From Burkholderiales bacterium (GTDB taxonomy: Bacteria > Pseudomonadota > Gammaproteobacteria > Burkholderiales > Burkholderiaceae_C): a stretch of 44,585 nucleotides of DNA. This document shows, piece by piece, positions 4,286 through 35,336 of the stretch (positions are counted from its first letter, which is position 1; every line of letters begins with the position of its first letter). The stretch is from positions 1-44,585 of the forward strand of contig JAGWTS010000005.1 of assembly GCA_028868875.1 (NCBI GenBank), read 5' to 3'. The notes beneath the pieces are model-generated. The model was not told the DNA's origin. It worked only from the letters and a program-made list of their open reading frames with translations, and did not search any database. The position numbers were made by a program, and so were the translations under genes.

Positions 4286-4927
4286 CTATCCGGCAATCGG
4301 AAGTCCGAGCAGCGATTCCAGTTTGCTGCGCTCGAGCCCGTCGACGAGGTCGACGAGCTTCAGCCCCGCCGGCGTGCACTCGAGCGTCGCGAGGTCGCCG
4401 TAAATGCGCTTGACGCATCCGACCGCGGTGAGCGGGTAGGTGCATTGCTCGACGAGTTTGCTCTGCCCTTGGCGCGTCAGCAGGTCCATCATGACCCAGG
4501 TCTGGCGCGCGCCGACGGCCAGGTCCATCGCGCCACCGACGGCCGGAATCGCATCCGCCTCGCCGGTGTGCCAGTTGGCGAGGTCACCCCGGGCCGAGAC
4601 CTGGAAAGCGCCCAGCACGCAGATGTCGATGTGGCCGCCGCGCATCATCGCGAAGCTGTCGGCGTGGTGGAAGAACGCGCCCCCGGGCAGCAGCGTCACC
4701 GGCTGCTTGCCGGCGTTGATGAGGTCGTAGTCTTCGCTGCCGGCCGGAGGCGATGCGCCCATGCCGAGGATGCCGTTCTCGCTGTGCAGGATCACCTCGA
4801 CGCCGGGCGGCAAATGGTTGGCCACCAAGGTCGGCATGCCGATGCCCAGGTTGACGTAAGCGCCGTCGTGGATGTCTTGCGCGACGCGCCGCGCCAGCTG
4901 CTCCTTGCTTCTGCGGACCCAGCCCAT
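4286..4927 (-). CDS. 3-oxoacid CoA-transferase, subunit B
   Basis: Family I CoA-transferase beta subunit of 213 residues, the usual length for PcaJ/ScoB/AtoA. The catalytic Glu50 lies in HSENGILG, and the glycine-rich NLGIGMPTLV loop lies near residue 26. It transfers CoA between an acyl-CoA and a free carboxylate through a glutamyl-CoA intermediate, as a heteromer with subunit A encoded 2 bases upstream. With the adjoining thiolase it could move CoA from succinyl-CoA onto a 3-oxo acid, or recover a short acid. The donor and acceptor cannot be read from the sequence. About 65 bases without a recognisable element separate it from the sulfatase-like gene. Confidence 0.93.
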   Translation of the reverse strand: MGWVRRSKEQLARRVAQDIHDGAYVNLGIGMPTLVANHLPPGVEVILHSENGILGMGASPPAGSEDYDLINAGKQPVTLLPGGAFFHHADSFAMMRGGHIDICVLGAFQVSARGDLANWHTGEADAIPAVGGAMDLAVGARQTWVMMDLLTRQGQSKLVEQCTYPLTAVGCVKRIYGDLATLECTPAGLKLVDLVDGLERSKLESLLGLPIAG

Positions 4928-4929: not shown

Positions 4930-5631
4930 TCAGGCCTCCTTGCGACTGCCGCCGGCCATGGTCGCGCTGCGCGCGACGCGGACGATGCGGTGGACGAAGA
5001 TGCCCGGGGTCACGATGGCCTCGGGATCGAGTGCTCCCAATTCGACGACCTCGTGCACGCTCGCCACCGTGCGCCGCGCCGCGGTCGCCATCACGGGGCC
5101 GAAGTTGCGCGCCGCCTTGCGGTACACGAGGTTGCCCCAGCGGTCGCCGCGCTCGGCCTTGACGAGCGCCAGGTCGGCGTGGATGGGGGTCTCGAAGACC
5201 TGCATGCGGCCGTCGATCTCGCGGGTCTCTTTGCCCTTGGCCAGTTCGGTGCCGTAGCCGGTGGGCGTGAAGAAGCCGCCGATGCCGGCCCCGGCGGCGC
5301 GGATCCGCTCCGCCAGATTGCCTTGCGGCACCAGTTCGAGTTCGATCTTTCCCGCCCGGTACAAGGCGTCGAAGACCTGGCTGTCGGCCTGGCGCGGAAA
5401 GCTGCAGATGACCTTGCGCACGCGCCCCGCCTTCAGCAGCGCAGCGAGGCCCGTTTCGCCGTTGCCGGCGTTGTTGTTGACGACCGTGAGCCCGCCCGCC
5501 CCTTGCTCTATCAAGCCTTCGATCAACTCGTTGGGAATGCCCGCGGTGCCGAAGCCGCCGATCATCACCGTGGCGCCGTCGGGCGTTCCGGCCAGCGCCT
5601 CGGCCACCGATGAAGCCAGCTTGTCGATCAT
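4930..5631 (-). CDS. 3-oxoacid CoA-transferase, subunit A
   Basis: Family I CoA-transferase alpha subunit of 233 residues (PcaI/ScoA/AtoD type). It starts [13 protein letters not shown] and has the CoA-binding [13 protein letters not shown] motif, [13 protein letters not shown] and [14 protein letters not shown], all diagnostic of the subunit. The ATG at 5631 overlaps the thiolase stop (ATGA), and the stop lies 2 bases before subunit B, indicating translational coupling of thiolase, A and B. The order thiolase then CoA-transferase resembles acetoacetate or 3-oxoadipate loci, but no other genes of those pathways are present. The real substrate is probably the 3-oxoacid made by this cluster. 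Confidence 0.93.
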
Positions 5632-6809
5632 TGGAAGATCTCGAACAAACCCGCGGCGCCCATGCCGCCGGCGATGCACATCGTCACCACCGCGAACTTG
5701 ACGCCGCGGCGCCGGCCCTCGATCAGCACATGACCGGCGAGGCGCGCGCCGGTCATGCCGAAGGGATGGCCGATCGCGATGCCACCGCCATCGACGTTGA
5801 GGATCTCGTCCGGGATGCCGAGCCGGTCGCGGCAATACAAGGCCTGCGACGCGAAAGCCTCGTTGAGCTCCCAGAGGCCGATGTCCCCGATCTTCAACCC
5901 ATGGCGCTCGAGCAGCTTCGGCACCGCGAACACCGGGCCGATGCCCATCTCGTCGGGCTCGCAGCCCGCGACCGCGAAGCCGCGGAAGGCGCCCAGCGCC
6001 TGCAGGCCGGCGCGCTCGGCGGCGCGCGCTTCCATCATCACGCAGGCCGAGGCGCCGTCGGAGAGCTGCGAGGCATTGCCGGCGGTGATGCAATGGCCAG
6101 CGCCCTTCACCGGTTCGAGCCGGGCGAGCGCCTCGTAAGTCGTTCCGGGGCGGTTGCAGGTGTCGCGGTCCACCGTGACCTCGCGCTGCGTCACCGCGCC
6201 GCTGGCCTTGTCGGCGACGGCCATCGTCGTCGTCACGGCGACGATCTCGTCGCGGTAGCGCCCCGCCGCCTGCGCCTGCTCGGTGCGCCACTGGCTTTGC
6301 GCCGAATAGCGGTCCTGGGCTTCGCGGCTGACGCCGTAGCGCGCCGCGACGACCTCGGCAGTGTCGATCATCGTCATGTAGAGATCGGGCTTGTGCTCGA
6401 CGATCCAGGGGTCGGTGCCGTAGCGGGCGTCGCGGCTTTCGATGCCGGAGATGCTTTCGACGCCGGCGGCGATCATCGCGGGCGCGCCGTCGAGCACGAT
6501 GCGGCCCGCGGCTTCAGCCACCGCGTGCAGGCCCGAGGCGCAGAAGCGGCTCACGGTGGCGCCGCCCAGCGAGGTCGGCAGGCCGGCGCGGATCACCGTT
6601 TGACGACCGATGTTGCGGCCGGTCCGGCCTTCGGGGTAGCCGCAGCCGATCACCAGATCCTCGATCGACCCCGGGTCGATGCGCGCGCGCTCGACCGCGG
6701 CGCGCACCGAGAAAGCCGCCAGCGTCGGCCCCGGCGTGATGTTGAATTCGCCGCGGTGCGCCTTGGTGAGCGGGGTGCGGGCGGTGGAGACGAAGACGGC
6801 TTCGCGCAT
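5628..6809 (-). CDS. Acetyl-CoA C-acyltransferase (thiolase)
   Basis: Degradative-type thiolase of 393 residues with the complete catalytic set. The nucleophile Cys90 is in SRFCASG, His348 in [10 protein letters not shown] and Cys378 in [10 protein letters not shown]. It cleaves a 3-ketoacyl-CoA with CoA to acetyl- or propionyl-CoA plus a shortened acyl-CoA. It lies between the DUF35/thiolase-like pair and the CoA-transferase genes and overlaps the latter by 4 bases. Unlike the two thiolase-like proteins in this window it keeps all active-site residues, so it is the likely true thiolytic step of the pathway. Substrate chain length is not readable. Confidence 0.94.
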
Positions 6810-6822: not shown

Positions 6823-7242
6823 TCAGGACGACTCGGACCTTGGGGGATCGGATTCTGCGAGGCGGAAGCGGGCGAGCGCGAGATCCCCCTCCCACTCCAC
6901 TTTCAATCGCACCCGGGCCTCGGCGCGCAGGCGGTCATGGGCGTCGGCGACGTTGGTCAGGAGGCGCGGGCCTTCGTCCAACTCGACCAGCGCCACGTTG
7001 TAGGGCAAGCGGCTTTCGAAGGCCGGGTGGTAGGCCTGGTGGTAGACGACCCAGCTGAGGAGCCGGCCTTCGCCGCTCGCGCGCTCCCAGCGCGTCTGGT
7101 CGCTCAAGCAGGCCGGGCAATGGCGGCGCGCCGGCAGCCAGGCATGGCCTTGGTCGCAGCGCTGGACGACGAGATGCCCTTCGCGCAAGGCATCCCAGTA
7201 AGGGCGGTTCAGCTCACCGATCTCGGGCTTCGGGAAATCCAT
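6823..7242 (-). CDS. DUF35 OB-fold protein with zinc ribbon (ChsH2/Ltp-partner type)
   Basis: Protein of 139 residues with the DUF35 plan. An N-terminal helix ([11 protein letters not shown]) is followed by a rubredoxin-like zinc ribbon with Cys29, His33, Cys42 and Cys45, then an OB-fold (about 58-125) rich in valine and leucine. The second ribbon ligand is His rather than the usual Cys. DUF35 proteins bind acyl-CoA and form complexes with thiolase-like lipid-transfer aldolases; the ChsH2-Ltp2 complex of steroid side-chain degradation is the known example. Here it lies immediately downstream of a thiolase-like gene and almost touches it, supporting a complex between the two. A scaffold or CoA-channelling role is inferred. 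Confidence 0.85.
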
Positions 7243-7243
7243 C

Positions 7244-8380
7244 TCAATTCCCCAGCAGCAAGGTCGAATGGGTGTGCATCGTGCCGCCCTGGTTGCTCAC
7301 CAGGCAGAGCTTGGCGCCCGGCACCTGCAGCCGCGCCGTGCCACGCATCTGGCGCACGCCTTCGATGATCAGCTGCAGCCCCGGCATGCCGGTCTCGGAC
7401 AGCAGGCCGCCGCTGGTGTTGATCGGCAGCCGGCCGCCATGCTCGATCGCGCCGTCGGCGACGAAGCGGCCTGCCTCGCCTTTGCGGCAGAAGCCGTAGT
7501 CTTCCAGCGTCATCAACACGGTGACGGTGAAGCAGTCGTAAAGCTGGGCGACGTCGACGTCCTTCGGCGCCGCGCCGGCCATCCGGAACGCGGTATCCGC
7601 CGCGCGCGCCGCTTCGGTCGAGGTGAGCGTGGCGCGCTGGGGGATCTCGAACGAAGTCTGGCCATGGCCGAAGCCGAGCACCGGCACCGGTTGCGCGACG
7701 CCGAGTTCGCGCGCGCGGCGCGCGCTCATGACGACGATCGCGGCGCCGCCGTCGGACACCAGGGCGCAGTCGTCGCGACGGATCGGGTCGACGACCCAGG
7801 GCGAGGCGAGGTATCGGTCCAGGTCCAGCGGAACGCGCAATTGGGCCGCCGGGTTTTGGGCGCCATGTTTGCGGCTCGCGATCGCCACCGCGGCGAAGCC
7901 TTCCACCCGCGTGCCGTACTCGATCATGTGGCGGCGCTGGATCATCGCGTAGCCGGCGGCGGTCGAGAACCAGCCGTAGACCGCGTCGTCGCCGCGCGGA
8001 CGGCCGAAGACGGCGCGGTTGCCGCTGCGCGGGTTGTCGGCATAGCAGACGAGCGCGACCTCGCATTGCCCGGCCTCGATCGCCATGATTGCGAACGACA
8101 GCAAGGTGATGTTGGCGGCGCCGCCCTGGTCCCAGGCGCCGCCGATGCGCGGCGTGACACCCAAGGCCTCGGCCACCTTCTGGCCGTACATGAACTGGTG
8201 CGCCGAGGTCGGCACCTTGACGAACACCGCGTCGACGAGCGACTTGTCGATGCCGGCATCGGCCAGCGCGTTGCGGCAGGCCTCGACGTTGAGCGAGACG
8301 GTGTCGCGCCCGGGCAGCTTGCCGAAAGCGGTGTGGCCGACACCGGCGATGACGTGGCGGCCGCTCGAGTTGGTGCTCAT
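7244..8380 (-). CDS. Thiolase-like lipid-transfer protein, probable retro-aldolase
   Basis: Thiolase-superfamily protein of 378 residues related to SCP-x/Ltp2. The overall fold is recognisable (IAGVGHTAFGK, NVEACRNALADAGID, LVSDGGAAIVV, QLYDCFTVTVL, C-terminal GGTMHTHSTLLLGN). Where thiolases carry the nucleophilic Cys, the sequence reads DQGGAANIT, so thiolytic cleavage is unlikely. Known members of this Cys-less group act with a DUF35 partner as aldolases that split a beta-hydroxyacyl-CoA with a branched carbon into a ketone and a shorter acyl-CoA. The gene overlaps the crotonase upstream (ATGA) and abuts its DUF35 partner downstream, which fits hydration followed by retro-aldol cleavage. 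Function is inferred from family and context. Confidence 0.85.
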   Translation of the reverse strand: MSTNSSGRHVIAGVGHTAFGKLPGRDTVSLNVEACRNALADAGIDKSLVDAVFVKVPTSAHQFMYGQKVAEALGVTPRIGGAWDQGGAANITLLSFAIMAIEAGQCEVALVCYADNPRSGNRAVFGRPRGDDAVYGWFSTAAGYAMIQRRHMIEYGTRVEGFAAVAIASRKHGAQNPAAQLRVPLDLDRYLASPWVVDPIRRDDCALVSDGGAAIVVMSARRARELGVAQPVPVLGFGHGQTSFEIPQRATLTSTEAARAADTAFRMAGAAPKDVDVAQLYDCFTVTVLMTLEDYGFCRKGEAGRFVADGAIEHGGRLPINTSGGLLSETGMPGLQLIIEGVRQMRGTARLQVPGAKLCLVSNQGGTMHTHSTLLLGN

Positions 8381-9153
8381 CGTCCGTTGAACCTCGGCTG
8401 GCGCTTCTCGGCGAACGCGGCTCGACCCTCGGCGGCGTCTTCGCTGCGCTGCAACTGCTGCTGCATGAACTGCTCCAGGCGCAGGCCCTCGGCCAAGCCC
8501 ATCCCGGGGCCGCGCAGCGCGAGCTCTTTAGCGGCCTGGACGGCGAGCGGCGCGTTCGCGGCGATGCGGCGCGCCAGGCCCAGCGCCGTCTCCATCACCT
8601 CGACGGCGGGGACGACGCGGTTCACCAGCCCCCAGCGCGCCGCGGTCTCGGCGTCGATGGCGTCGCCGATGAGCAGCAACTCCATCGCGATCGCATGCGG
8701 CAATTGCCGCGGCAGGCGCTGGGTGCCGCCGTTGGCGGCGATGATGCCGCGCCGGACCTCGCTGAGCGCGAAAGTGGCGTGGCTGGCGGCGACGCGGATG
8801 TCGGTCGCCAGCATCAGCGTCATGCCGCCGGCCAGGCAATGGCCGTTGATCGCCGCGACGACCGGCTTCCAGATCTCGAGCCCGCGGTTCAGCAGCATGC
8901 CTTTCTGGGTCTGCCAGATCTCGGCCGGGTCGACCTTGCGGCCGATCCAGGACTTGAGGTCGGCGCCGGCGCTGAACACCTGGTCGCCGGCGCCGGTGAC
9001 GACGGCGACGCGGATCGCCTCGTCGTCGCGCACCCGCGTCCAGGCCTTGGACAAAGCCTCGTAATGCTCGGCGTCGAGCGCATTGCGCTTCTCGGGCCGG
9101 TTGATCGTGATGACGGCGATGCCGCCGTCCTGCAGGTCGAGGTCGATGGACAT
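8377..9153 (-). CDS. Enoyl-CoA hydratase (crotonase family)
   Basis: Crotonase of 258 residues with oxyanion-hole segments FSAGADLKSW and NGHCLAGGMTLMLA. Both positions matching the catalytic pair of rat mitochondrial hydratase (Glu144/Glu164) are Glu here, in ALSEVRRG and AIAMELLL, so true hydratase activity is plausible. It would add water to the enoyl-CoA made by the dehydrogenase encoded just upstream. The hydroxyacyl-CoA product could pass to the thiolase-like protein, whose start overlaps this stop by 4 bases. The ATG at 9153 is chosen because the protein begins MSIDLDLQ at the usual family position. Confidence 0.92.
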   Translation of the reverse strand: MSIDLDLQDGGIAVITINRPEKRNALDAEHYEALSKAWTRVRDDEAIRVAVVTGAGDQVFSAGADLKSWIGRKVDPAEIWQTQKGMLLNRGLEIWKPVVAAINGHCLAGGMTLMLATDIRVAASHATFALSEVRRGIIAANGGTQRLPRQLPHAIAMELLLIGDAIDAETAARWGLVNRVVPAVEVMETALGLARRIAANAPLAVQAAKELALRGPGMGLAEGLRLEQFMQQQLQRSEDAAEGRAAFAEKRQPRFNGR

Positions 9154-9173
9154 GACGCGCCTCCGGGGATCTT

Positions 9174-10343
9174 TCAGCGGCCTACGCCGAGCAGCTGGCG
9201 CGCCAGCACCATGCGGTGCACCTCGGACGGGCCTTCGCCGATGCGCTTGATGCGCAGCTCGCGGTACCAGCGCTCCAGCGGCAGTTCCTGCGCCACGCCC
9301 AGGGCACCCAGGATCTGGATGCAGCGGTCGACGACGCGGCCCGCGGTTTCGGTCGCCACCACCTTGGCGATCGACGAAGCCACCTTGAGGTCGCCGCGGC
9401 CGAGGTCGGCGATCCAGGCCGCCTGGTACACGAGCAGGCGCGCCGCGCGCAATTCGATCTCGCTGTTGGCCACCATCCATTGCACGGCCTGCTTGTCGGC
9501 GAGCTTGCTGCGGAAGGTCTCGCGCTCGCGCGCCCAGTCGATCGCGATCTGCAAAGCCGCTTGGGCGATGCCGATGGTGCCGGCGGCGTAAGGGATGCGG
9601 CCTTCGACGAGCCATTTCTCGCACACCGCAAAGCCCTTTCCTTCTTCCCCGAGCCGGTCCCCGAGCGGGATCTCGACGTCCTTGAACGTGATCTCGTAAG
9701 GCGAATAAGAGCGGATGACGGGAATCGGCTTCATCGTCATGCCCTCGGGCTGGCCGTTGACGATGAAGCAGCTGATGCCGCCGCGGTCGCCCTGCTCGCC
9801 GGTGCGCGCGAAGACGATTCCCCAGTCGGCGCCCTGGGCGCCGGTGATCCACATCTTACTGCCGTTGAGCAGGTATTTGTCGCCTTGGCGGACGGCGCGC
9901 GCGCGGATCGAGCGCGCCGGATCGGCGCCGCCCGACGATTCGCTGATCGCAACGTAGATCTTCTTGCCTTGGCGGATGCCGGGCACCGCGTATTTCTGGA
10001 CCTGCTCCTCGGTGCCGAGGTAGATCGCGTTCGGGGGATCGGCGCCGAAAGCGCCGCAGGCCGGCACGTAGGCACCCATGCGGCACTTGGCGGCCTCTTC
10101 GGCGACGACGGCCTGGCCGAGCAGGCTGAGGCCCGCGCCGCCATGCTCGGCCGGCGAGCGCAGGCACCAGAGGCCGATTTCGCGCGCCTTGGCCTGCAGC
10201 GGCTCCAGCGCCTCGGCCGGCAGTTCGTAAGCGTCGTGCGGCAGCCGGTCTTCGGCGGGCTTCACCTCGGCGGCCATGAAGCGCCCCACGGTGTCCTGGA
10301 GCTGCCGAAGCTCCTCGGGAAGTTCCCAGCTGTCTGTGCCCAT
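9174..10343 (-). CDS. Acyl-CoA dehydrogenase
   Basis: Full-length acyl-CoA dehydrogenase of 389 residues. It shows the FAD/substrate-binding segments AISESSGGADPA and KMWITGAQGADW, the C-terminal helical domain, and Glu370 in GEGPSEVHR at the position of the MCAD catalytic base (Glu376). It oxidises an acyl-CoA to the 2,3-enoyl-CoA with FAD and passes electrons to ETF. It is the first gene of a ten-gene minus-strand run ending at 391. An IclR-type operator candidate lies 44 bases upstream of the start (10388-10414). Active-site residues look intact, unlike the paired dehydrogenases elsewhere in the window. Confidence 0.94.
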   Translation of the reverse strand: MGTDSWELPEELRQLQDTVGRFMAAEVKPAEDRLPHDAYELPAEALEPLQAKAREIGLWCLRSPAEHGGAGLSLLGQAVVAEEAAKCRMGAYVPACGAFGADPPNAIYLGTEEQVQKYAVPGIRQGKKIYVAISESSGGADPARSIRARAVRQGDKYLLNGSKMWITGAQGADWGIVFARTGEQGDRGGISCFIVNGQPEGMTMKPIPVIRSYSPYEITFKDVEIPLGDRLGEEGKGFAVCEKWLVEGRIPYAAGTIGIAQAALQIAIDWARERETFRSKLADKQAVQWMVANSEIELRAARLLVYQAAWIADLGRGDLKVASSIAKVVATETAGRVVDRCIQILGALGVAQELPLERWYRELRIKRIGEGPSEVHRMVLARQLLGVGR

Positions 10344-10387
10344 GCCCTGCCTGGATTGTCGGTTGCGAATCGGTCCGGATTCTTTAC

Positions 10388-10414
10388 CATGGAATTCAGT
10401 TCGTCAAATGGAAC
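10388..10414 (-). promoter_or_regulatory. Candidate IclR operator (site A)
   Basis: Read on the minus strand, the site begins GTTCC and matches the operators at 15232-15258 and 18293-18319: GTTCC, two variable bases, TTG, any base, CGAA, then AATTCC. Nineteen of the first 24 positions are identical to the 15232 site. It lies upstream of the ten-gene run, between divergent transcription units. Binding by the IclR protein encoded at 17424 is inferred from repetition and position. Confidence 0.5.
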
Positions 10415-10516
10415 CGAACTTGACGACCCGGCGATTCGGCGCAGACAATGGATCCGCTTCCAAGATACGGAACATCATCCCGTTCCTTCCATCCCCGAAA
10501 CCCTTGCAGAGACTCC

Positions 10517-10698
10517 ATGGCCCAGTTCAACCTTCGCCGGCCGCGCGCGCGACGATGCGCTGTCCCTCGGTGGCTTGTGCCGCGTCGACACGCCCCAGGA
10601 GCTGATGCGCGTCATCGAGGCGGGATGCGACCGATCGGCGCGCATCACCACCTGGGCCAAGGTCGCCAAGACGCCGTGGCCGCGCCGGAGTCGCGTCC
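10517..10698 (+). pseudogene. Frameshifted remnant of an unidentified gene
   Basis: The 355-base space between the divergent dehydrogenase and synthetase is not empty. An ATG at 10517 opens MAQFN; from about 10533 the frame one base over reads FAGRARDDALSLGGLCRVD, then TPQELMRVIEAG and RITTWAKVAK. Its third codon positions are about 90% G or C, as in real genes here, whereas the in-frame reading after MAQFN is Arg-rich like a shadow frame. The pattern is that of a short coding remnant with a frameshift near 10532, cut off by the synthetase start. I do not recognise the protein family. It could instead be chance composition in a leader region. Confidence 0.35.
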
Positions 10699-12858
10699 AT
10701 GATGGCATCGCGCCCGCTCTACCGCCCCGACGAACTGGCGCGCACCTTTGCGCCGCGCAGCATCGCCGTCGTCGGCGTCTCGACGAACCCGAACTCGTTC
10801 GGCTCGATTACCTACGCGAATGTCGCCGGGCCGGGGCGCTTCGGCGGGCCGGTGTACATGGTCAACGCCAAGTACGACCGCATCGGCGACCGGCCCTGCT
10901 GGCCATCGATCGCCGCCTTGCCGGAAGCGCCCGACTGCGTCTTCGTCGCCGTGCCGCGCGAGGCGGTCGAGGGCGTCGTGCTCGAGTGCGCGCAGCGCCG
11001 CGTCGGCGGTGTCGTGCTCTTCGCCTCCGGCTATGCCGAGACTGGCCTCGCCGAGCGGACAGCCTCGCAGCAGCGCCTGCTGGACATCGCGCGCGCTGCC
11101 GGCATGCGGCTGATCGGCCCCAACTGCGTCGGCTTCATGAACTACGGGCTCGGGCTGGTCGGCACCTTCGGCAGCGCCTCGTTCAAGGGCGCGCCGCGCG
11201 CCGGCGCGATCGGGCTCGTGAGCCAGTCGGGGGCGGTGGGCGCGGCACTCGCGCAAGCCCAGGAACACGGCGTCTCGCTCAGCCACATGCTCACGAGCGG
11301 CAACGCCTGCGACGTCGACGTCGCCGACCAGGTCGCCTATCTCGCGGCCGACCCCGGATGCCGGGCGATTGCCTGCCTGTTCGAAGGGCTGGCAGATCCG
11401 CAGCGGTTCCTGCAGGCGGCCGAGGCCTGCCGCGCGGCCGGCAAGCCGCTCGTCGTCCACAAGCTGGGAACGAGCGAGCGCGGGGCCCAGGCCGCCGTCT
11501 CGCACACCGGGTCGATCGCCGGATCGCAGGCCGCCTACAACGCCGCTTTCGAGCGCGCCGGCGTCATCCCCGTCGACGAGGTCGAGGCGCTTCTCGACAC
11601 CACCTCTTTCTTCGCCAAGGCGCCGCCGCCGAAGGCGCGCGGCGTGGCGGTGGCTGCCGTCTCGGGCGGGGCCTGCATCATGCTGGCCGACAAGGCCGAG
11701 GAGGCCGGCGTCGAGCTGCCGCCGCCGCGGCCCGAGACGATGGCGGTGCTCGACCGCCTGATCCCCGAATACGGCTCGGCCGGCAACCCCTGCGACATGA
11801 CGGCCCAGGTGCTGTCGACGCCGCAACACCTGAGCGAATGCTTCGAGGCGCTGCTCGCCGATCCGCAATACGGTGCGCTCGTGGTTCCGCACACCTTCGC
11901 TTACGCGCCGGCGACCGCGCGCATCGGCATCATGGGCCGTGCCGCCGAGCGCTACGACAAGATCGCCTGCGCCGTCTGGCTGACCCAGCACCTCGAAGGC
12001 CCGGGTGCCGTCGAGACCGAGCAGAACCCGCGCGTCGCCCTCTTCCGCTCGATGCGCCATTGCATGGCGGCGCTGGCGCAATGGCACCGGCGCGCCGACG
12101 AGCGGGCGCTGCGCCGGGCACCGGCGGCGCGCCTGAGCGACCGCCAAGCGTGCGAGCGCGCCGCCGCGCTCATCGAACGCTCGCCGAACGCCACCCTGAC
12201 CGAGCGCGAAGCCAAGCAGGTGCTGGCCGCTTACGGCGTTCCGGTGGTGCTCGACCGCCTCGTGCAGTCCGCTGAAGAGGCGGTCGCGGCGGCCGAGGCC
12301 GGCGGCATGCCGGTCGTGCTCAAGGTGGAATCGCCCGACATCGCGCACAAGACCGAGGCCGGCGTCGTGCGCCTGAACCTGCGCAGTGCCGACGAGGTGC
12401 GCGGCGCCTACGCCGAGGTCATGCGCAACGCCCACGCCGTGACGCCCGCGCCGCGCATCAGCGGCGTGCTGGTGCAGCCGATGGTGACGCAAGGGACCGA
12501 GATCATGGTCGGCGCGCGCATCGATCCGCAGTTCGGGCCGCTGATCCTCGTCGGCCTGGGCGGCGTCTTCGTCGAGTTGCTGCAAGACACGGCGGTGCGC
12601 CTCGCGCCGGTCGACACGCGCGAGGCGCGCAAGATGCTGGCCGGCTTGAAGGCCCAGCGTGCGCTGCAGGGTTTTCGCGGCACCGAGCCGGTGGACCTGG
12701 ACCGCCTCGCCGAGGTCGTCGCCCGCGTCTCGGAATTCGCTGCCGACCAGGGCGAGCGCATCGCCGAGCTCGACATCAACCCGCTGATCTGCGCCGGCAG
12801 CCGCATCGTCGCGGTCGACGCCTTGATCGCCAAACGCCATGTTGCCCGCGATGAATGA
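10699..12858 (+). CDS. Acyl-CoA synthetase, ADP-forming (fused alpha-beta)
   Basis: Protein of 719 residues. Domains in order are a CoA-binding Rossmann domain (SIAVVGVSTNPNSFG), two succinyl-CoA-synthetase-like domains with His269 in VSHTGSIAG as the likely phosphorylated histidine, and a C-terminal ATP-grasp domain (ESPDIAHKTEAG, LIVGLGG-like segment, ELDINPL). This family makes acyl-CoA from acid, CoA and ATP with ADP and phosphate as products. It likely activates the free acid entering the pathway. ATG codons occur at 10699 and 10702, with GGAG about ten bases upstream. The stop overlaps the downstream DUF35 gene. A second fused synthetase with the same architecture is at 36422-38560. Confidence 0.92.
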   Translation: MMASRPLYRPDELARTFAPRSIAVVGVSTNPNSFGSITYANVAGPGRFGGPVYMVNAKYDRIGDRPCWPSIAALPEAPDCVFVAVPREAVEGVVLECAQRRVGGVVLFASGYAETGLAERTASQQRLLDIARAAGMRLIGPNCVGFMNYGLGLVGTFGSASFKGAPRAGAIGLVSQSGAVGAALAQAQEHGVSLSHMLTSGNACDVDVADQVAYLAADPGCRAIACLFEGLADPQRFLQAAEACRAAGKPLVVHKLGTSERGAQAAVSHTGSIAGSQAAYNAAFERAGVIPVDEVEALLDTTSFFAKAPPPKARGVAVAAVSGGACIMLADKAEEAGVELPPPRPETMAVLDRLIPEYGSAGNPCDMTAQVLSTPQHLSECFEALLADPQYGALVVPHTFAYAPATARIGIMGRAAERYDKIACAVWLTQHLEGPGAVETEQNPRVALFRSMRHCMAALAQWHRRADERALRRAPAARLSDRQACERAAALIERSPNATLTEREAKQVLAAYGVPVVLDRLVQSAEEAVAAAEAGGMPVVLKVESPDIAHKTEAGVVRLNLRSADEVRGAYAEVMRNAHAVTPAPRISGVLVQPMVTQGTEIMVGARIDPQFGPLILVGLGGVFVELLQDTAVRLAPVDTREARKMLAGLKAQRALQGFRGTEPVDLDRLAEVVARVSEFAADQGERIAELDINPLICAGSRIVAVDALIAKRHVARDE

Positions 12859-13231
12859 AAAAGCCCCCTCGCCGCTCGCCCAATACCGCGCCGGACTCGC
12901 GCGTGGCGAACTCGGCTACCAGGTCGATGCCGATGGCCGCCCGGTGTTTTATCCGCGCGTCACCGCGCCGCAGGGCCGGCGCGGGCCTTTGAGCTGGGCC
13001 GTGAGCGGCGGCCTGGGCACCGTTTACGCGACGACCTTCATCAGCCCCAAGGGCGAGCCCGCCTACAGCGTCGCCTTGATAGCCATGGACGAAGGATTCC
13101 GCCTCATGAGCCGCGTGGAAGCGCTGGCCGCCGAGCAGGTTCGCATCGGCCTGCGCGTGAAGCTGCGCGCGCAACCGGGCCACGACGACGACGGCCCTTA
13201 CCCCGTGTTCGAACCGCTGGAGCTCGCATGA
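12851..13231 (+). CDS. DUF35-type OB-fold protein lacking the zinc ribbon cysteines
   Basis: Protein of 126 residues at the position and with the layout of a DUF35 partner: short N-terminal helix (SPLAQYRAGLARGELG), ribbon region, then OB-fold (SWAVSGGLGTVYATTF, PAYSVALIAMDEGFRL, GLRVKLRAQPG). The protein contains no cysteine; the ribbon reads YQVDADGRPVFYPRVTAPQG where zinc ligands normally sit, so zinc binding is lost. The ATG at 12851 overlaps the synthetase stop by 8 bases; an earlier ATG at 12839 would add four residues. It overlaps the following thiolase-like gene by 4 bases, consistent with an obligate pair. Confidence 0.8.
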   Translation: MNEKAPSPLAQYRAGLARGELGYQVDADGRPVFYPRVTAPQGRRGPLSWAVSGGLGTVYATTFISPKGEPAYSVALIAMDEGFRLMSRVEALAAEQVRIGLRVKLRAQPGHDDDGPYPVFEPLELA

Positions 13232-14385
13232 CGCGCGGCCTCAGCCGCGGCGCCGCGGCGATCGTCGGCGTCGCCGAATCCGACCTCGGCGAGGTCGCGC
13301 CCGGACTGGGCGTCGTCGACCTGATGGCGCAAGGCACGGCGCGCGCGCTCGACGACTGCGGCCTCGCGCTTTCCGATGTCGACGGCGTCTTCGCCGCCTC
13401 CGGCCAGAGCCGGATGGCAAGCGTCGCCTTGTGCGAATACCTGGGCCTGAAGCCGCGCTGGCACGACAGCACGATGCAGGGCGGCTCTTCGTTCATGACC
13501 CATGTCGCCCATGCCCAGGCCGCGATCGAGGCCGGCCTCATCGAGGTGGCGCTGATCGCTTACGGCAGCACCCAGCGCAGTGCAGGACGCAAGAACGTGG
13601 CGCCGCGCGAATACAACCCTTACGAGACGCCCTTCAAGCCCTTGACGCCGGCCAGCGCTTATGCGCTCGCGGCCTCGCGCCATTTCCATGAATACGGCAC
13701 GACGCGCGAGCAACTCGCCGAGATCGCCGTCGCCGCGCGCCACTGGGCCTTGATGAATCCGCGCGCCTGGGAGAAGGCGCCGCTCACGGTGGCCGAGGTG
13801 CTGGCTTCGCGCATGGTGAGCCACCCCTTGACGGTGCGCGACTGCTGCCTCGTCACCGACGGCGGCGGCGCCTTGATCATGACCTCGGCCGCGCGCGCCC
13901 GCGGCTTGCGCAAGCCGCCGGCTTTCGTGCTCGGCATGGGAGAGAGCCTGAGCCATCTGTCGATCAGCAACATGGCCGACCTCACCGTCACCGCGGCGCG
14001 CGAATCGGGTGCGCAGGCTTATGCGATGGCCGGGCTGGCAGCGAAGGACATCGACGCCGTCGAGGTCTACGACGCCTTCACGATCACGACCCTGCTCTTC
14101 CTCGAAGACCTGGGCTTCTGCCCGAAGGGCGAGGGCGGCCGATTTGTGATGGACGGCGCCATCGCCCCCGGCGGGCGCCTGCCCGTCAACACGAACGGCG
14201 GTGGCCTCTCCTACTGCCATCCGGGGATGTACGGCCTCTTCGTGCTCATCGAGGCGGTGCGGCAGATCCGCGGCGAATGCGGCGAACGCCAGGTGGCGGG
14301 CTGCGAGACCGCGATCGCGCATGGCAACGGCGGCGTGCTCTCGGCGCAAAGCACGGTCATCCTGGGGACGTCGGCGACGCTGTAG
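13228..14385 (+). CDS. Thiolase-like lipid-transfer protein, second copy
   Basis: Thiolase-superfamily protein of 385 residues of the SCP-x/Ltp2 kind. The nucleophile region reads MQGGSSFMTH with no Cys. Conserved family blocks are LVTDGGGALIM, EVYDAFTITTLLFLEDLGF, CPKGEGGRFV and LPVNTNGGGLSYCHPG, with a C-terminal HGNGGVLSAQSTVIL. It overlaps the DUF35-like gene (ATGA). As with the copy at 7244, a retro-aldolase or CoA-dependent carbon-carbon lyase role is more likely than thiolysis. It differs from that copy across most of the sequence, so it may take a different substrate or a different step in the same pathway. Confidence 0.85.
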   Translation: MTRGLSRGAAAIVGVAESDLGEVAPGLGVVDLMAQGTARALDDCGLALSDVDGVFAASGQSRMASVALCEYLGLKPRWHDSTMQGGSSFMTHVAHAQAAIEAGLIEVALIAYGSTQRSAGRKNVAPREYNPYETPFKPLTPASAYALAASRHFHEYGTTREQLAEIAVAARHWALMNPRAWEKAPLTVAEVLASRMVSHPLTVRDCCLVTDGGGALIMTSAARARGLRKPPAFVLGMGESLSHLSISNMADLTVTAARESGAQAYAMAGLAAKDIDAVEVYDAFTITTLLFLEDLGFCPKGEGGRFVMDGAIAPGGRLPVNTNGGGLSYCHPGMYGLFVLIEAVRQIRGECGERQVAGCETAIAHGNGGVLSAQSTVILGTSATL

Positions 14386-14416: not shown

Positions 14417-14434
14417 GTTCAGCGACCGCTGAAC
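14417..14434. terminator. Possible bidirectional terminator hairpin
   Basis: Perfect inverted repeat GTTCAGCG / CGCTGAAC with a 2-base centre, between convergent genes. It overlaps the stop codon of the crotonase on the minus strand. No T-run follows, so factor-independent termination is doubtful. Confidence 0.3.
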
Positions 14435-15192
14435 AGCGGCTTGCGCTTTTCCTTGAACGCGGCCGTGCCCTCAGCGTGGTCGGCGGTCTGCATCAATTGC
14501 GGCTGCACGAGCAACTCGATCGCCAGGTACTCGTCCAGGCTCGGCGAGACACTGGCCGCGAACAACTGCTTGGCCATCGCGAGCGCGAGCGTCGGCCCTT
14601 CGGCGTATTCGCGCGCCTGCTCCAAGGCGGCGTCGAGCACCTGATCTTCCGCCACCACGCGCTGCACGAGGCCGAGCGCGGCGGCCTCGGCCGCGTCGAC
14701 GCTGCGGGCGCTGAAGACGAGTTCCTTGGCGCGCGAAAAGCCCATCTGGCGCGCCAGGAACCAGACCGCGCCGCCGTCGGGCGCGAGTCCGATGCGCTTG
14801 AACACCTGGGCGAACTTCGCGCTCGACCCGGCGACGACGAGGTCGCAAGCCATCGCCATGCTGAAGCCGACGCCCACCGCCGGCCCGCGCACGGCCGCGA
14901 CCACGGGCTTGTCCAGGCCGTGGATGGCCCGGATCATCGCGTGCATGGTCTGCATGCGGGTCCGCGACGCGGCGACGCCGCGCCCGCCCATCGCGCCGAC
15001 GTCGGCGCCTGAGCAGAAGGCGTCACCGGCGCCAGTGAGCACGACGGCGCGCACGCCGTCGTCGGCGGCAAAGCCGCGGAAAGCCTCGAGCAAGGCCTGG
15101 CGCATTTCCAGCGTCACCGCGTTCTTGCGCGTCGGGTTGTCGATGGTGACGAGCGCCACCGCGGCGCGGCGCTCGACGCTGATCGTCGTCAT
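14419..15192 (-). CDS. Crotonase-family enoyl-CoA hydratase/isomerase
   Basis: Crotonase of 257 residues with oxyanion segments CSGADVGAMGG and GPAVGVGFSMAMA. At the first catalytic Glu position of classical hydratases the sequence has AQVFKRIGL (no Glu), while the second is kept (RAKELVF). This pattern is common in PaaG-like isomerases and other non-hydratase crotonases, so a double-bond isomerase or ring-cleaving role is as likely as hydration. ATG at 15192 is used; the frame stays open to 15276 but those codons cross the operator. It is transcribed divergently from the FadB-like gene, with site B between them. Confidence 0.88.
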   Translation of the reverse strand: MTTISVERRAAVALVTIDNPTRKNAVTLEMRQALLEAFRGFAADDGVRAVVLTGAGDAFCSGADVGAMGGRGVAASRTRMQTMHAMIRAIHGLDKPVVAAVRGPAVGVGFSMAMACDLVVAGSSAKFAQVFKRIGLAPDGGAVWFLARQMGFSRAKELVFSARSVDAAEAAALGLVQRVVAEDQVLDAALEQAREYAEGPTLALAMAKQLFAASVSPSLDEYLAIELLVQPQLMQTADHAEGTAAFKEKRKPLFSGR

Positions 15193-15274: not shown

Positions 15275-17377
15275 ATGAATCGCGAAACCTATGCCGTCCA
15301 CGGCGCCACCGCCGTCATCACCCTCGACAACCCGCCCGTCAACGGCATGGGCCATGCCATGCGCCAGGAAGTGGCGGGCCATCTCGACACGGCCTGGGCG
15401 GACCCGGCCGTCAGCGCCATCGTCATCATCGGCGCCGGCAAGCTGTTTTGCGGCGGCGCCGACATCAAGGCCTTCAACACCCCGGCCTCGCGCGCCGAGC
15501 CGAGTTCGCGCACCCTCGTGGCCCGCATCGAGGCCTCGGCCAAGCCGGTGATCGCCGCCGTCCACGGCAGCGCCCTGGGACTGGGGCTGGAGTTCGCGAT
15601 GGGCTGCCATTACCGCATCGCCCGGCGCGGCGCCAAGCTGGCGCTGCCCGAGGTCAAGCTCGGCTTGCTGCCCGGCGGCGGCGGCACGCAGCGCCTGCCG
15701 CGACTCGTGGGGGTCGAGGCGGCAGCGACGATGATCGTCGAAGGCGAATCGGTCGACGCCGACCGCGCGCTGGCGCTGGGTCTGGTTGACGAGGTCATCG
15801 ATGGCGAACTGCTGCCGGCGGCCCTCGCCTTTGCCGATCGCTTGGCCGGGGGCGTCGCCGCGGCACGGGAACATCCGGTGGTGTCGCGCCGCGCGGTCCG
15901 CCCGCCCCAGGACCCCGGATTCTTCGCCGCCCAACGCCAGCGCATCGCCGCATCGCGCCGCGGCCAGCCGGCACCGCTGGAATGCCTGGCCTGCATCGAG
16001 GCGGCGCTCACGATGCCTTTCGACGAAGGACTGAAGTTCGAGCGCGAGCGCTTCGACATCCTCGTCAACGGCACCGAGTCGAAGGCGATGCGCCACCTCT
16101 TCCTCGCCGAGCGCGCCGCGGCCAAGATCGACGGACTCCCGGCCGACACCGCGGTGGCGACGATCGACCGTGTCGCGATCATCGGCGCCGGCACGATGGG
16201 CGGCGGCATCGCGATGAGCTTCGCGTCGGCCGGTATCCCGGTGACCTTGGTGGAAGCCAAGCCCGAGGCCTTGCAGCGCGGCCTCGCGACGATCCGCAAG
16301 AACTACGAAGCCACGGCAGCCAAAGGCCGGCTGAGCGCCGCCGAGGCCGAGGCCCGCATCGCCCGCATCGAAGGCGCGCTCGATCTCGAACGCGTCGGCG
16401 ATGCCGACCTCGTCATCGAGGCGGTGTTCGAGGACATGGCGGTGAAGCAGGAACTCTTCACGCGGCTCGACGCTCTGTGCAAGCCCTCGGCCGTACTCGC
16501 CACCAACACCTCGCGCCTGGACGTCGACGAGATCGCGCGCACGACACGGCGCCCGGCATCGGTGATCGGCCTGCATTTCTTCAGCCCGGCGAACGTGATG
16601 CGCCTCGTCGAAGTAGTGCGCGGCGCGGCGAGTTCGCCGTCGACCGTCGCGAGCTCGATGAACGTGGTGCGCCGGATCGGCAAGCTGCCGGTCCTGGTCG
16701 GCGTCTGCGACGGCTTCGTCGGCAACCGCATGGTGGCGCAATACGCGCGCGAGGCCGAGTTCCTGCTCGAGGAAGGCGCCACGCCCGGGCAGGTCGACGG
16801 CGCGTTGAAAAAGTTCGGCCTCGCGATGGGCCGCTTCGCGATGGCCGACCTCGCCGGACTGGACATCGGCTGGGCGGGCCGCAAGCGCATGGCGGCGACG
16901 CGCCCGGCGCATCTGCGCTATTCGAAGGTGGCCGACCGCATTTGCGAGCTGGGGCGGCTGGGGCAGAAGACCGGCGCCGGCTTTTACCGCTACGAAGCGG
17001 GCAGCCGTTCGCCGGTTCCTGACCCGGTGGTGCACGAGTTGATCGAGCAATGCGCGCGCGAATCCGGCATCGAGCGGCGCGAGATTTCTGACGCCGAGAT
17101 CGTCGAACGCACGATTTACGCCCTCGTCAACGAAGGCGCGAAGATCCTCGAAGAAGGCATCGCCCAGCGCGCTTCCGACATCGACCTCATCTACGTCAAC
17201 GGCTACGGCTTTCCGGCCTGGCGCGGCGGGCCGATGTTTTATGCCGACACCGTCGGACTGGCGAAGGTCTGCGAACGCATCCGCGAGTTCGAGCGCCGGC
17301 ATGGCGAATTCTGGAAGCCCGCGCCTTTGCTCGTGCGCCTGGCCGAATCGGGCAAGACTTTCGCCAAGCCGGAATGA
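15275..17377 (+). CDS. Fused enoyl-CoA hydratase / 3-hydroxyacyl-CoA dehydrogenase (FadB-like)
   Basis: Bifunctional beta-oxidation protein of 700 residues. Residues 1 to about 190 are a crotonase domain (CGGADIKAFN, GSALGLGLEFAM, ALPEVKLG). The first catalytic Glu is present, but the second position is Thr (AAATMIVEG). From about residue 297 comes the NAD-binding Rossmann fold (IIGAGTMGGGIAMSF), then the HAD catalytic region (GLHFFSPANVMRLVEVV) and two C-terminal HAD domains (DGFVGNRM, GYGFPAWRGGPMFY). It hydrates enoyl-CoA and oxidises 3-hydroxyacyl-CoA, feeding the thiolase. It is transcribed alone from the site B promoter and followed by a strong palindrome. Confidence 0.95.
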   Translation: MNRETYAVHGATAVITLDNPPVNGMGHAMRQEVAGHLDTAWADPAVSAIVIIGAGKLFCGGADIKAFNTPASRAEPSSRTLVARIEASAKPVIAAVHGSALGLGLEFAMGCHYRIARRGAKLALPEVKLGLLPGGGGTQRLPRLVGVEAAATMIVEGESVDADRALALGLVDEVIDGELLPAALAFADRLAGGVAAAREHPVVSRRAVRPPQDPGFFAAQRQRIAASRRGQPAPLECLACIEAALTMPFDEGLKFERERFDILVNGTESKAMRHLFLAERAAAKIDGLPADTAVATIDRVAIIGAGTMGGGIAMSFASAGIPVTLVEAKPEALQRGLATIRKNYEATAAKGRLSAAEAEARIARIEGALDLERVGDADLVIEAVFEDMAVKQELFTRLDALCKPSAVLATNTSRLDVDEIARTTRRPASVIGLHFFSPANVMRLVEVVRGAASSPSTVASSMNVVRRIGKLPVLVGVCDGFVGNRMVAQYAREAEFLLEEGATPGQVDGALKKFGLAMGRFAMADLAGLDIGWAGRKRMAATRPAHLRYSKVADRICELGRLGQKTGAGFYRYEAGSRSPVPDPVVHELIEQCARESGIERREISDAEIVERTIYALVNEGAKILEEGIAQRASDIDLIYVNGYGFPAWRGGPMFYADTVGLAKVCERIREFERRHGEFWKPAPLLVRLAESGKTFAKPE

Positions 17378-17423: not shown

Positions 17424-18284
17424 TCAGGCGGGGATCTTCGGCGCCGTCTTGCGCGGCTTGGCCGCGGTCTTGCGGGCCGGGGCCTTCTTCGCGGCGGGCC
17501 GCGCCTGATCGGCGTTGACGTCGTCCATCAAGAGCTTGAGGTCCAGGGCATGGTCGGGGCTCGCGCCGAGCCGGGTCGAGATGTCGCGTCCGGCCACCAT
17601 CAGGATCTCGGCAAAGTCGAGGTCGCGCGGGTCGACGCGAACGCTCGGGCCGGTGAGCGAGAGGCCATGGCGCACCTTGCCGTGGATGTCGAAGATCGGC
17701 ACCGAGATCGCGGTCAGCCCGGGTACGCGCTGGCCGCGCGACAAGGCATAGCCCTGCTTGCGGAAGCGCGCGAGTTCGCGGTCGAAGGCCGCCCGGTCGT
17801 ATTCGACGCCGGCGGTGGTGAACTTCAGCACCGCTTCGAGTTCGTCGGGCTCCATGTGCGCGAGCAGGATGCGGCTGCTCGCGCTCAGGAACAAAGGCAT
17901 GTGCTCGCCCAGCCGCGCCATCGACATCAGCGGCGCGGGCGAGTCGACCACTTCGAGCACCATGCGGTCGTTGCCGACGATGGTGTTGAGCGTGATCGTC
18001 TCCTGGGTCTGCTTGTTGACCTCGAGCATCACCGGCCGCGCGATCTCGCGGATGTTGAGCGTGCTGCGCACCAGCCCGCCCAGGCGCGCCAGCTTCAGCG
18101 ACAGGCAATACTGCTGGTTGTCCATGCGGATCAGGAAGCCTGCCCGCTCGAGCGTGTTGACGAGCCGGAAGGTCGTCGTCTTGGGCATCCGGATGCGCTC
18201 GGCGAGGTCTTGCAGCGTGAGGCTCAGGTGCTCGTTGTCGAAGGCGTCGAAGATGGCCAGCGCGCGGCCGACAGCGCGGATCAT
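17424..18284 (-). CDS. IclR-family transcriptional regulator with basic C-terminal tail
   Basis: Regulator of 286 residues. The N-terminal winged helix-turn-helix (IRAVGRALAIFDAF, LTLQDLAERIRMPKTTTFRL) is followed by the effector-binding domain (GLTAISVPIFDIHGKVRHGL). The last 30 or so residues are Ala/Lys/Pro-rich (AAKKAPARKTAAKPRKTAPK), an H1-like extension not typical of the family that could add non-specific DNA affinity. The start at MIRAVG is preferred over upstream ATGs because an operator-like site lies 8 bases before it (18293-18319). It is downstream of the dehydrogenase pair on the same strand. Likely controls the left half of the island in response to a pathway acid or CoA ester (inferred). 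Confidence 0.92.
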   Translation of the reverse strand: MIRAVGRALAIFDAFDNEHLSLTLQDLAERIRMPKTTTFRLVNTLERAGFLIRMDNQQYCLSLKLARLGGLVRSTLNIREIARPVMLEVNKQTQETITLNTIVGNDRMVLEVVDSPAPLMSMARLGEHMPLFLSASSRILLAHMEPDELEAVLKFTTAGVEYDRAAFDRELARFRKQGYALSRGQRVPGLTAISVPIFDIHGKVRHGLSLTGPSVRVDPRDLDFAEILMVAGRDISTRLGASPDHALDLKLLMDDVNADQARPAAKKAPARKTAAKPRKTAPKIPA

Positions 18285-18292
18285 GGACAAAC

Positions 18293-18319
18293 TCCGGTAC
18301 GGATTTCGATGGGCGGAAC
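18293..18319 (-). promoter_or_regulatory. Candidate IclR autoregulatory operator
   Basis: On the minus strand: GTTCCGC, three bases, TCGAAATC, two bases, T, one base, CCGGA, matching site B at 21 of 27 positions. It fills the short gap between the dehydrogenase stop and the iclR start, which suggests autoregulation from an internal promoter. Confidence 0.6.
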
Positions 18320-35334: not shown

Positions 35335-35336
35335 GC

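Follow-up and report, generated by a model that had tools for sequence, protein, structure and literature searches.

Two thiolase-like/DUF35 gene pairs without the nucleophilic cysteine, probable acyl-CoA lyases of a catabolic island in a Burkholderiales bacterium

The window analysed here is the whole of contig JAGWTS010000005.1 (44,585 nucleotides), one contig of the draft genome of a Burkholderiales bacterium (5.7 Mb, 571 contigs). It carries two gene pairs, A and B, each encoding a thiolase-like protein (TL) and a DUF35 protein. An initial annotation, made from the sequence alone, had singled out these pairs as retro-aldolases of an undescribed pathway; the observation is confirmed, and the interpretation as a whole is partly supported. 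The genes concerned are the following.

6823-7242, minus strand: DUF35-A (139 aa), zinc ribbon and OB fold, predicted partner of TL-A (PF01796 and PF12172)
7244-8380, minus strand: TL-A, thiolase-like protein, predicted catalytic partner in an acyl-CoA retro-aldolase (378 aa; QGGAAN, YDCF, SETGMPG; PF22691 at 172.8 bits, and motif table)
8377-9153, minus strand: ECH1, enoyl-CoA hydratase of the A cassette (PF00378; the scan began at 9165)
9174-10343, minus strand: ACAD1, acyl-CoA dehydrogenase of the A cassette (PF00441, PF02770, PF02771)
23101-24291, minus strand: CaiB2, class III CoA-transferase of the A cassette, here displaced (NCBIfam scores)
10699-12858, plus strand: ACS1, ADP-forming acyl-CoA synthetase preceding pair B and overlapping DUF35-B (PF13380, PF13607, PF13549)
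12839-13231, plus strand: DUF35-B (130 aa), OB-fold protein (PF01796 at 42.6 bits, no PF12172)
13228-14385, plus strand: TL-B, thiolase-like protein of PRK06158 (385 aa; QGGSSF, YDAF, SYCHPGMYG; NF004811 at 620.3 bits)

The two pairs lie on opposite strands, as annotated, and their gene order is opposite, with the TL first in A and the DUF35 protein first in B. The stop codon of TL-A and the start codon of DUF35-A are separated by a single nucleotide (TGA-G-ATG), DUF35-B and TL-B overlap in ATGA, and ECH1 overlaps TL-A by 4 nt. From this spacing we infer the translational coupling within both pairs that had been claimed at the outset. TL-A and TL-B are 42% identical. Among the best 120 matches listed per protein search, the nearest with a named organism come from Ramlibacter metagenome-assembled genomes (MAGs), at 91% identity for TL-A and 88% for TL-B. 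A frequent database label among relatives of the pair proteins is 'acetyl-CoA acetyltransferase'.

The TLs were aligned with solved structures including 7yvy, 6esq, 7pxp (BbsB), 6hsj, 6ok1 (TcLtp2), 9myr and 4u4e, giving 159 rows. The four true thiolases (7yvy, 6esq, 7pxp and 6hsj) have a cysteine at the nucleophile column together with HD[AC]F and GH motifs. At this column both window TLs carry a glycine, Gly87 in TL-A (QGGAAN) and Gly86 in TL-B (QGGSSF), so the loss of the nucleophile and the motifs first reported for it are correct. A cysteine is found there in only five of the 159 rows, namely the four thiolase structures and one SCP2-type plasmid row. The histidine of HD[AC]F is replaced by a tyrosine in both TLs and, after removal of redundancy at 95%, in 74/74 rows of the TL-A family and 40/40 rows of the TL-B family. 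Within these same rows Gly87, Tyr281, Asp282, Cys283 and Glu329 are invariant in the TL-A family, as are Gly86, Tyr281, Asp282, His331 and Pro332 in the TL-B family, where position 283 is alanine in 35 rows and serine in five. The GH motif of thiolases is absent from TL-A, which has SETGMPG instead. The invariant HP of TL-B shares columns with the thiolase GHP (SYCHP-GMYG compared with RGHPVGATG), without the preceding glycine and with one residue fewer.

Retro-aldolases of the thiolase fold are known for steroid side chains, and residue roles are given for TcLtp2 and for CtSal, in which Tyr302 and Cys304 are proposed to be catalytic (PMC12329534, in the part of that text available). TcLtp2 has the glycine, YDHF and EAYIHG, with Tyr294, His296 and Tyr344 at the positions named in the paper according to the structure numbering. 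PDB entry 9myr, which is taken to be CtSal by its YDCY motif, has the glycine, YDCY and FGQSG. Both proteins hence combine the glycine with YD[HC][FY] and have no GH. This aldolase pattern is followed by TL-A at all three places and by TL-B at the first two. By alignment, TL-A has both the tyrosine and the cysteine to which catalysis by CtSal is ascribed. TL-B keeps the tyrosine, without the cysteine of Sal and without the second tyrosine of Ltp2, and its invariant histidine is the obvious candidate for a partner. IpfD from an ibuprofen plasmid combines the glycine with YDAF, and 4u4e, 54% identical to TL-B, has YDSF and HPGMYG.

DUF35-A is a stand-alone open reading frame of 139 codons that is not fused to a MaoC hydratase. 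Judged by motif only, its ribbon has the spacing C-x3-H-x8-C-x2-C that is reported for CtShy. Since most of its family has a C4 ribbon (56/81 rows, with the Cys3His1 type in 8/81), the C3H ribbon of the window protein looks like a local change. DUF35-B has no cysteine at all. A DUF35 protein without a ribbon recurs among close DUF35-B relatives and in IpfE, and a four-Cys ribbon is kept by some other TL-B partners; on a rough count, 26 of 30 DUF35-B relatives lack it, one of 31 loci having given no match.

At Pfam cut-offs both TLs match PF22691, and TL-B also PF02803. TL-B is a full member of NCBIfam PRK06158 (NF004811; 620.3 bits, cut-off 421), to which the related structure 4u4e was compared above. 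TL-A, in contrast, falls below the cut-off of all 25 NCBIfam families shown, its best score being 333.6 bits against the 421 of PRK06158, and three of its relatives likewise stay under this cut-off (320-351 bits). A quick maximum-likelihood tree of 87 rows was calculated with SH-like approximate likelihood-ratio test (SH-aLRT) support only. It is divided by a split with starred support of 100 into seven and 80 rows. The smaller side consists of the structures of the four thiolases, the plasmid row of SCP2 type and two Cys-less rows on long branches, whose joining to this side may be false according to a warning of the program. The larger side holds both window TLs, TcLtp2, CtSal, IpfD and 4u4e. 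The window TLs therefore do not group with ordinary thiolases, the outcome that the initial annotation had named as speaking against it. A relationship with Ltp2/ChsH2, also raised there, is seen for TL-A, whose clade (99, starred) joins Ltp2, IpfD, the second TL of plasmid pIBU218 and one other row at 86, unstarred; TL-B instead groups with 4u4e (98, starred). The placement of CtSal and IpfD, both on long branches, is unsure.

A scan of contigs retrieved 93 TL-A relatives, of which the best 80 loci (58-91% identity) were kept. A gene was counted as present at any identity if E <= 1e-15 over at least half its length, and many loci are cut by contig ends. Relatives of DUF35-A occur in 80, of ECH1 in 75, of ACAD1 in 62 and of CaiB2 in 57 of these loci, followed by the TctC receptor (40), TL-B (9), FadJ (6) and the ordinary thiolase THL (6). 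In 79/80 loci the DUF35-A relative is encoded no more than 6 kb from TL-A and in the same orientation; this holds for DUF35-A, ECH1 and ACAD1 together in 58/80, and with a CaiB-type gene in addition in 43/80. A FadJ-like hydroxyacyl dehydrogenase within 5 kb of TL-A was found in 0/80 loci by a search that would miss types of the short-chain dehydrogenase/reductase (SDR) family; such a domain occurs anywhere in the locus in 7/80. An ordinary thiolase is found within 5 kb in six loci, all of them among the nine close loci discussed below. Judging by record titles, the carriers belong to the alphaproteobacteria, betaproteobacteria and actinomycetes, with single MAGs from other phyla. The A-type cassette is thus widespread and apparently undescribed: no title dealing with it was found among open-licence papers, and one may exist elsewhere. 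Given the absence of the FadJ-like dehydrogenase, a cassette of dehydrogenase, hydratase, TL and DUF35 fits a retro-aldolase acting on a non-steroid acid.

A second complete A-type cassette is present in the same genome on contig C434 (L131, 1-11107), with identities to the window of 68% for ACAD1, 64% for ECH1, 58% for CaiB2, 65% for TL-A and 50% for DUF35-A. Contig C121 (L133) of this genome carries two more kinds of TL near DUF35, CoA-transferase and TctC genes. The first has no YDxF and no nucleophilic cysteine, yet is placed with the thiolases in the tree; the second has YDCF and SQAHVWG. Genes for hydantoinase-type HyuA and HyuB occur in 19/80 and 15/80 TL-A loci (among them L052, L055, L061, L079, L083, L084 and L102). 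Carboxylation of a ketone product by HyuA/HyuB was considered and dropped, as the one HyuA tested (L083) is nearer to N-methylhydantoinase (464 bits) and 5-oxoprolinase (386) than to acetophenone carboxylase (318) or acetone carboxylase (242).

Among known systems, Sal/Shy resembles pair A in its Cys-less TL with a DUF35 partner, its Tyr-Asp-Cys motif and its ribbon spacing. It differs in that CtSal is only 32% identical to TL-A and 37% to TL-B, no steroid genes are seen near the window pairs, DUF35 is fused there to a MaoC hydratase, and CtSal and TL-A are not joined in the tree. Ltp2/ChsH2 (TcLtp2, PDB entry 6ok1) is likewise Cys-less, with a tyrosine base (YDHF) and a DUF35 partner, but its second catalytic tyrosine, Tyr344 in EAYIHG, corresponds to SETGMPG in TL-A and SYCHPGMYG in TL-B, and the x of YDxF is histidine rather than cysteine or alanine.

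IpfD/IpfE of pIBU218 is a non-steroid pair, Cys-less and with the YDAF of TL-B, and IpfE has no four-Cys ribbon, as is the case for DUF35-B. IpfD is 37% identical to TL-B, and its neighbours differ, with a gene for an AMP-binding protein and one for a ring dioxygenase. The insertion of a mini-Tn5 mutant has been located in ipfD; in the available parts of the two reports ipfDE is termed a thiolase yielding propionyl-CoA, the cleavage not being resolved as an aldol cleavage (PMC9195938; PMC11347016). The ipf region in fact holds two TL/DUF35 pairs. The second (L156:939-4557) is of the Ltp2 type, with YDHF and EAYIHG, accompanied by a hydratase and a CaiB CoA-transferase gene; its TL scores 583 bits to PRK07855, above the cut-off of 469.

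BbsAB, the benzoylsuccinyl-CoA thiolase, also combines a thiolase-fold subunit with a DUF35-type zinc subunit, but BbsB keeps the cysteine of true thiolases, HDAF and GHP. Such pairs are therefore not confined to steroid side-chain retro-aldolases, contrary to what had been supposed. The bbs pathway parallels the A cassette in placing a CoA-transferase, a dehydrogenase and a hydratase before the cleavage and differs in its dehydrogenase BbsCD, which has no FadJ-like counterpart within 5 kb of TL-A at the 80 loci, SDR types being outside that search. Steroid side-chain pathways follow the same order of transferase, dehydrogenase, hydratase and cleavage. It is mainly this order of steps, parallel to bbs minus BbsCD and to the steroid side-chain pathways, that favours an aldol cut by pair A.

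Pair B is an ordinary PRK06158 member. In the order, 38/399 genomes have a relative of TL-B (E <= 1e-100) and 2/399 one of TL-A (E <= 1e-120), the window's genome being included in both counts. Neighbourhoods of TL-B were sampled at 26 loci, 20 from 18 genomes of the order and six on plasmids. Within 5 kb, none of these loci has a FadJ-like dehydrogenase or an ordinary thiolase; a relative of ACS1 is near in eight, one of CaiB1 in five and one of the 3-oxoacid CoA-transferase in three. The window differs in that FadJ begins 0.9 kb past TL-B. As the neighbourhood of TL-B varies, its substrate probably varies too, and the reaction of pair B is less certain than that of pair A.

The remaining genes of the region that is kept with the pairs, together with its periphery, are as follows.

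1170-2294, minus strand: zinc alcohol dehydrogenase (ADH), island periphery (PF00107, PF08240)
2328-4220, minus strand: alkyl sulfatase of metallo-beta-lactamase fold, island periphery (PF14863, PF14864, PF00753)
4286-4927, minus strand: 3-oxoacid CoA-transferase subunit B (TIGR02428, 278 bits, above cut-off)
4930-5631, minus strand: 3-oxoacid CoA-transferase subunit A (TIGR02429, 374 bits, above cut-off)
5628-6809, minus strand: THL, ordinary thiolase with its cysteine in FCASG, downstream of pair A (PF00108, Thiolase_N; PF02803, Thiolase_C; TIGR01930 above cut-off)
14419-15192, minus strand: ECH2, enoyl-CoA hydratase/isomerase (PF00378; the scan began at 15198)
15275-17377, plus strand: FadJ-type hydratase and 3-hydroxyacyl-CoA dehydrogenase (PF02737, PF00725, PF00378)
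17424-18350, minus strand: IclR-type regulator, given as the open reading frame, within which the start codon may lie (PF01614, PF09339)
18319-19473, minus strand: ACAD2, first of an acyl-CoA dehydrogenase pair, putative heteromer (PF00441, PF02771, PF02770)
19494-20666, minus strand: ACAD3, putative heteromeric partner of ACAD2 (PF02770, PF00441, PF02771)
20675-21484, minus strand: ECH3, enoyl-CoA hydratase family (PF00378)
21838-23079, plus strand: CaiB1, class III CoA-transferase nearest to succinate-glutarate CoA-transferase (435 bits, cut-off of 750 not reached)

The top NCBIfam scores of the other class III enzyme, CaiB2, are to formyl-CoA, oxalate, glutarate and mesaconate transferases, all below cut-off. 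The alkyl sulfatase gene apparently shares a transcription unit with pair A.

The extent of the island was judged from nine close loci at a presence threshold of at least 55% identity. Five have wider flanks (L034 on one side only); the other four are covered only up to 10 kb from TL-A, which makes absence there weak. TL-A, DUF35-A, ECH1 and ACAD1 are present in 9/9, IclR, ACAD2, ACAD3, ECH3 and CaiB2 in 7/9, FadJ in 6/9, and THL, ACS1, DUF35-B, TL-B and CaiB1 in 5/9. Less constant are the alkyl sulfatase (4/9), SDR1, ECH2, TctC and a SnoaL-like gene (3/9), and ADH and the 3-oxoacid CoA-transferase genes (2/9). In the five widely sampled loci TL-B, DUF35-B, ACS1, FadJ, IclR, ACAD2, ACAD3, ECH3, CaiB1 and CaiB2 are always found, so that both pairs are kept in 5/5 despite a different gene order in L044. 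ACAD3 is 74-89% identical in seven close loci, and 9/10 genomes have a match to it at E <= 1e-120. SDR2 to SDR4, most of the ABC transporter, a lactonase-like SMP30 gene, ACAD4/5, ACS2, ECH4, TetR, the monooxygenase and the transposase are found in 0/9 at this threshold; LIVK, in 1/9, is the sole exception between 25 and 44.6 kb. As this part is not conserved with the pairs, the pathway is to be read from about 1.2-24.3 kb, and a single pathway for the whole window is rejected at this identity.

The occurrence of two pairs together, thought at first to be special, is seen again in one operon-like run each on Hydrogenophaga plasmid pBPS33-1 and in Ottowia thiooxydans (L058). The pBPS33-1 run consists of genes for TctC, ACAD, ECH, TL-A, DUF35-A, a CoA-transferase, DUF35-B, TL-B and a 3-oxoacid CoA-transferase; it is flanked by an IS1071 element on either side and contains two IS3 transposase genes. 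Gene order is the same in O. thiooxydans. The TL-B proteins of these two runs are only 51% identical to that of the window. The terms 'CoA' and 'thiolase' are absent from the text of the paper on strain BPS33 (PMC7039861).

Taken together, we put at roughly 60% the reading in which both pairs are TL/DUF35 acyl-CoA lyases of one island of about 1.2-24.3 kb, acting on an acid with a branch or ring that blocks beta-oxidation. As judged from motifs and gene content, the pairs belong to a known enzyme class and would most likely degrade a beta-branched or alicyclic acid by aldolytic beta-oxidation, a new form of a known kind of process. The non-steroid retro-aldolase implied by the initial annotation fits the cassette; its branched or alicyclic acid is a fair guess rather than a result. 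Of the two pairs, A makes the stronger case for a retro-aldolase. The acid would be converted to its CoA ester by CaiB2 or ACS1, which ACAD1 would oxidize to the 2-enoyl-CoA. Hydration by ECH1 would give a 3-hydroxyacyl-CoA with a tertiary or otherwise not usefully oxidized hydroxyl, and a retro-aldol cut by TL-A with DUF35-A could then release a ketone or aldehyde together with acetyl-CoA or propionyl-CoA. Following the CtSal proposal for Tyr302/Cys304, Tyr281 of TL-A would accept the hydroxyl proton and Cys283 would protonate the enolate. A further cut of this kind in the pathway would probably fall to pair B, Tyr281 acting as the base and possibly His331 as its partner, and ACAD2/3, ECH3 and pair B could repeat the steps at another position. 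Unblocked, normal rounds would be left to FadJ and the true thiolase. The alkyl sulfatase and ADH may hint at entry from an alkyl sulfate or alcohol, bearing in mind that they are present in only 4/9 and 2/9 close loci.

Several observations weigh against this. FadJ lies 0.9 kb from TL-B and is kept in 6/9 close loci, and the true thiolase adjoins pair A, so thiolytic rounds clearly occur near the pairs. An SDR-type 3-hydroxyacyl-CoA dehydrogenase resembling BbsCD would escape our search, SDR genes are present in some loci, and many TL-A loci end at contig borders. In the tree, two Cys-less rows, one of them from the window's own genome, fall with the thiolases, so a missing cysteine alone does not mark the aldolase side, and CtSal, on its long branch, is not placed with TL-A. 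TL-B has an alanine where known aldolases have the catalytic cysteine or histidine, and its family retains an invariant HP about where thiolases have GHP. Finally, a TL-B relative is present in only 9/80 TL-A loci, in one of them at 28% identity; A and B are mostly apart, which suggests one shared pathway for some lineages only.

This last point leads to the idea that the two pairs serve unrelated, merely neighbouring pathways, which we consider rather improbable. It is in keeping with the absence of a nearby TL-B from 71/80 TL-A loci and with the frequency of TL-B relatives in the order (38/399 genomes compared with 2/399 for TL-A). Against it, both pairs are retained in every widely sampled close locus even where gene order has changed, and both lie in a single IS1071-bounded run in pBPS33-1. 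A TL-B relative is moreover found in 12 of 20 TL-A genomes compared with 38/399 in the order (Fisher p = 1.4e-7), a contrast that is inflated because the 20 genomes were hand-picked from the 80 loci, include the closest relatives and are akin. Alternatively, pair A alone could be a retro-aldolase and pair B a catalyst of other chemistry, thiolase-like or a deacylating C-C cleavage via the invariant histidine, perhaps on a product of the 3-oxoacid CoA-transferase. Its YDAF, in place of YDCF or YDHF, and the HP found in 40/40 rows agree with this, as does the 3-oxoacid CoA-transferase at 3/26 TL-B loci, directly after TL-B in pBPS33-1. Yet the family has no nucleophilic cysteine, a tyrosine in 40/40 rows where thiolases have the HDxF histidine and no FadJ-like dehydrogenase within 5 kb at any of 26 loci, and IpfD, which is tied by a mutant to ibuprofen cleavage, has YDAF as well. 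We regard such a division of labour as unlikely.

Far less credible is that both pairs are degenerate thiolases that still perform thiolytic (Claisen) cleavage. The fold family is shared, and BbsAB shows that a complex with a DUF35-type subunit can be a true thiolase, but BbsB has the cysteine, HDAF and GHP of a true thiolase; the window TLs have neither the cysteine nor the HDxF histidine and lie outside the Cys-bearing group in the tree. We give equally little credence to the island being the cluster with which a steroid degrader breaks down the side chains of steroids or bile acids. The YDCF of TL-A does fit the YDC[FY] of CtSal, the DUF35-A ribbon is spaced as in CtShy, and acyl-CoA dehydrogenases that occur in pairs are a usual feature of steroid side-chain degradation. 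As the initial annotation had stated, however, steroid-ring genes are missing: none was seen among the 36 window genes, out of 39 listed, that were scanned against Pfam and/or NCBIfam (all except LIVM, LIVH and LIVG), and on this ground the steroid pathway was dropped as the best reading. An extradiol-dioxygenase query gave no match in the draft genome, a single probe without positive control that proves little, and the C4 ribbon of most of the TL-A family (56/81) makes the C3H spacing look local.

The reading of both pairs as lyases of one island can be extended more tentatively, to a degree that we would hold possible but somewhat short of even odds. Pair A may be the cutter of a widespread, mobile and unnamed 'aldolytic beta-oxidation' cassette that replaces hydroxyacyl dehydrogenase and thiolase and gives ketones. 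The cassette would consist of a class III CoA-transferase, an acyl-CoA dehydrogenase, a hydratase, a Cys-less TL and a DUF35 protein, and would serve alphaproteobacteria, betaproteobacteria, actinobacteria and other lineages in the breakdown of beta-branched or ring-bearing acids. Pair B may likewise represent a third catalytic arrangement, tyrosine with an invariant histidine, in addition to the Tyr/Cys pair in Sal and the two tyrosines of Ltp2. For few compounds other than steroids is it known how aerobic bacteria overcome a beta-branch or the attachment point of a ring. If true, a portable gene set for one aldol cut would explain part of how bacteria pass such branches and rings, would help annotators to separate these proteins from 'acetyl-CoA acetyltransferase' and would supply C-C bond-forming biocatalysts for non-steroid CoA esters. 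A motif test at three places (the Cys column, the YDxF/HDxF motif at its first residue, and the region of the His) could be applied to thousands of scored relatives.

The distal part of the window holds the following features.

34144-36410: second pair of unlike acyl-CoA dehydrogenases, ACAD4/5, putative heteromer
36422-38560: ACS2, second ADP-forming synthetase
40087-41742: flavin monooxygenase of Baeyer-Villiger appearance
42605-44377: transposase gene at the contig end (PF01609)

The true thiolase, the two ADP-forming synthetases and the two adjacent pairs of unlike dehydrogenases listed by the initial annotation are thus all present, the heteromeric nature of the latter being predicted. 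The second dehydrogenase pair and synthetase (34.1-38.6 kb), which had been used as a clue to the pathway, are unfit for this purpose because they occur in 0/9 close loci at the 55% threshold. They belong to a separate cluster at 34144-41742, with a hydratase, a TetR regulator and the flavin monooxygenase, that is not kept with the pairs. ACAD4 scores 304 bits to the large subunit of pimeloyl-CoA dehydrogenase, below the cut-off, and dehydrogenases related to it at 40-43% identity occur in three loci.

A Baeyer-Villiger route from ketone to lactone via the monooxygenase, for example from cyclohexylacetate, was also dropped, as this gene is found in 0/9 close loci at the 55% threshold. A relative of it at E <= 1e-40 is found in 9/20 TL-A genomes, with more than 70% identity in only two. 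Cyclohexylacetate is reportedly degraded to cyclohexanone, an idea for which no gene-level account was found in the literature listings screened. ARAGORN predicts a tRNA-Gln at 37831-37921, within the ACS2 gene; this is probably false because Rfam gives no RNA in the window at gathering scores.

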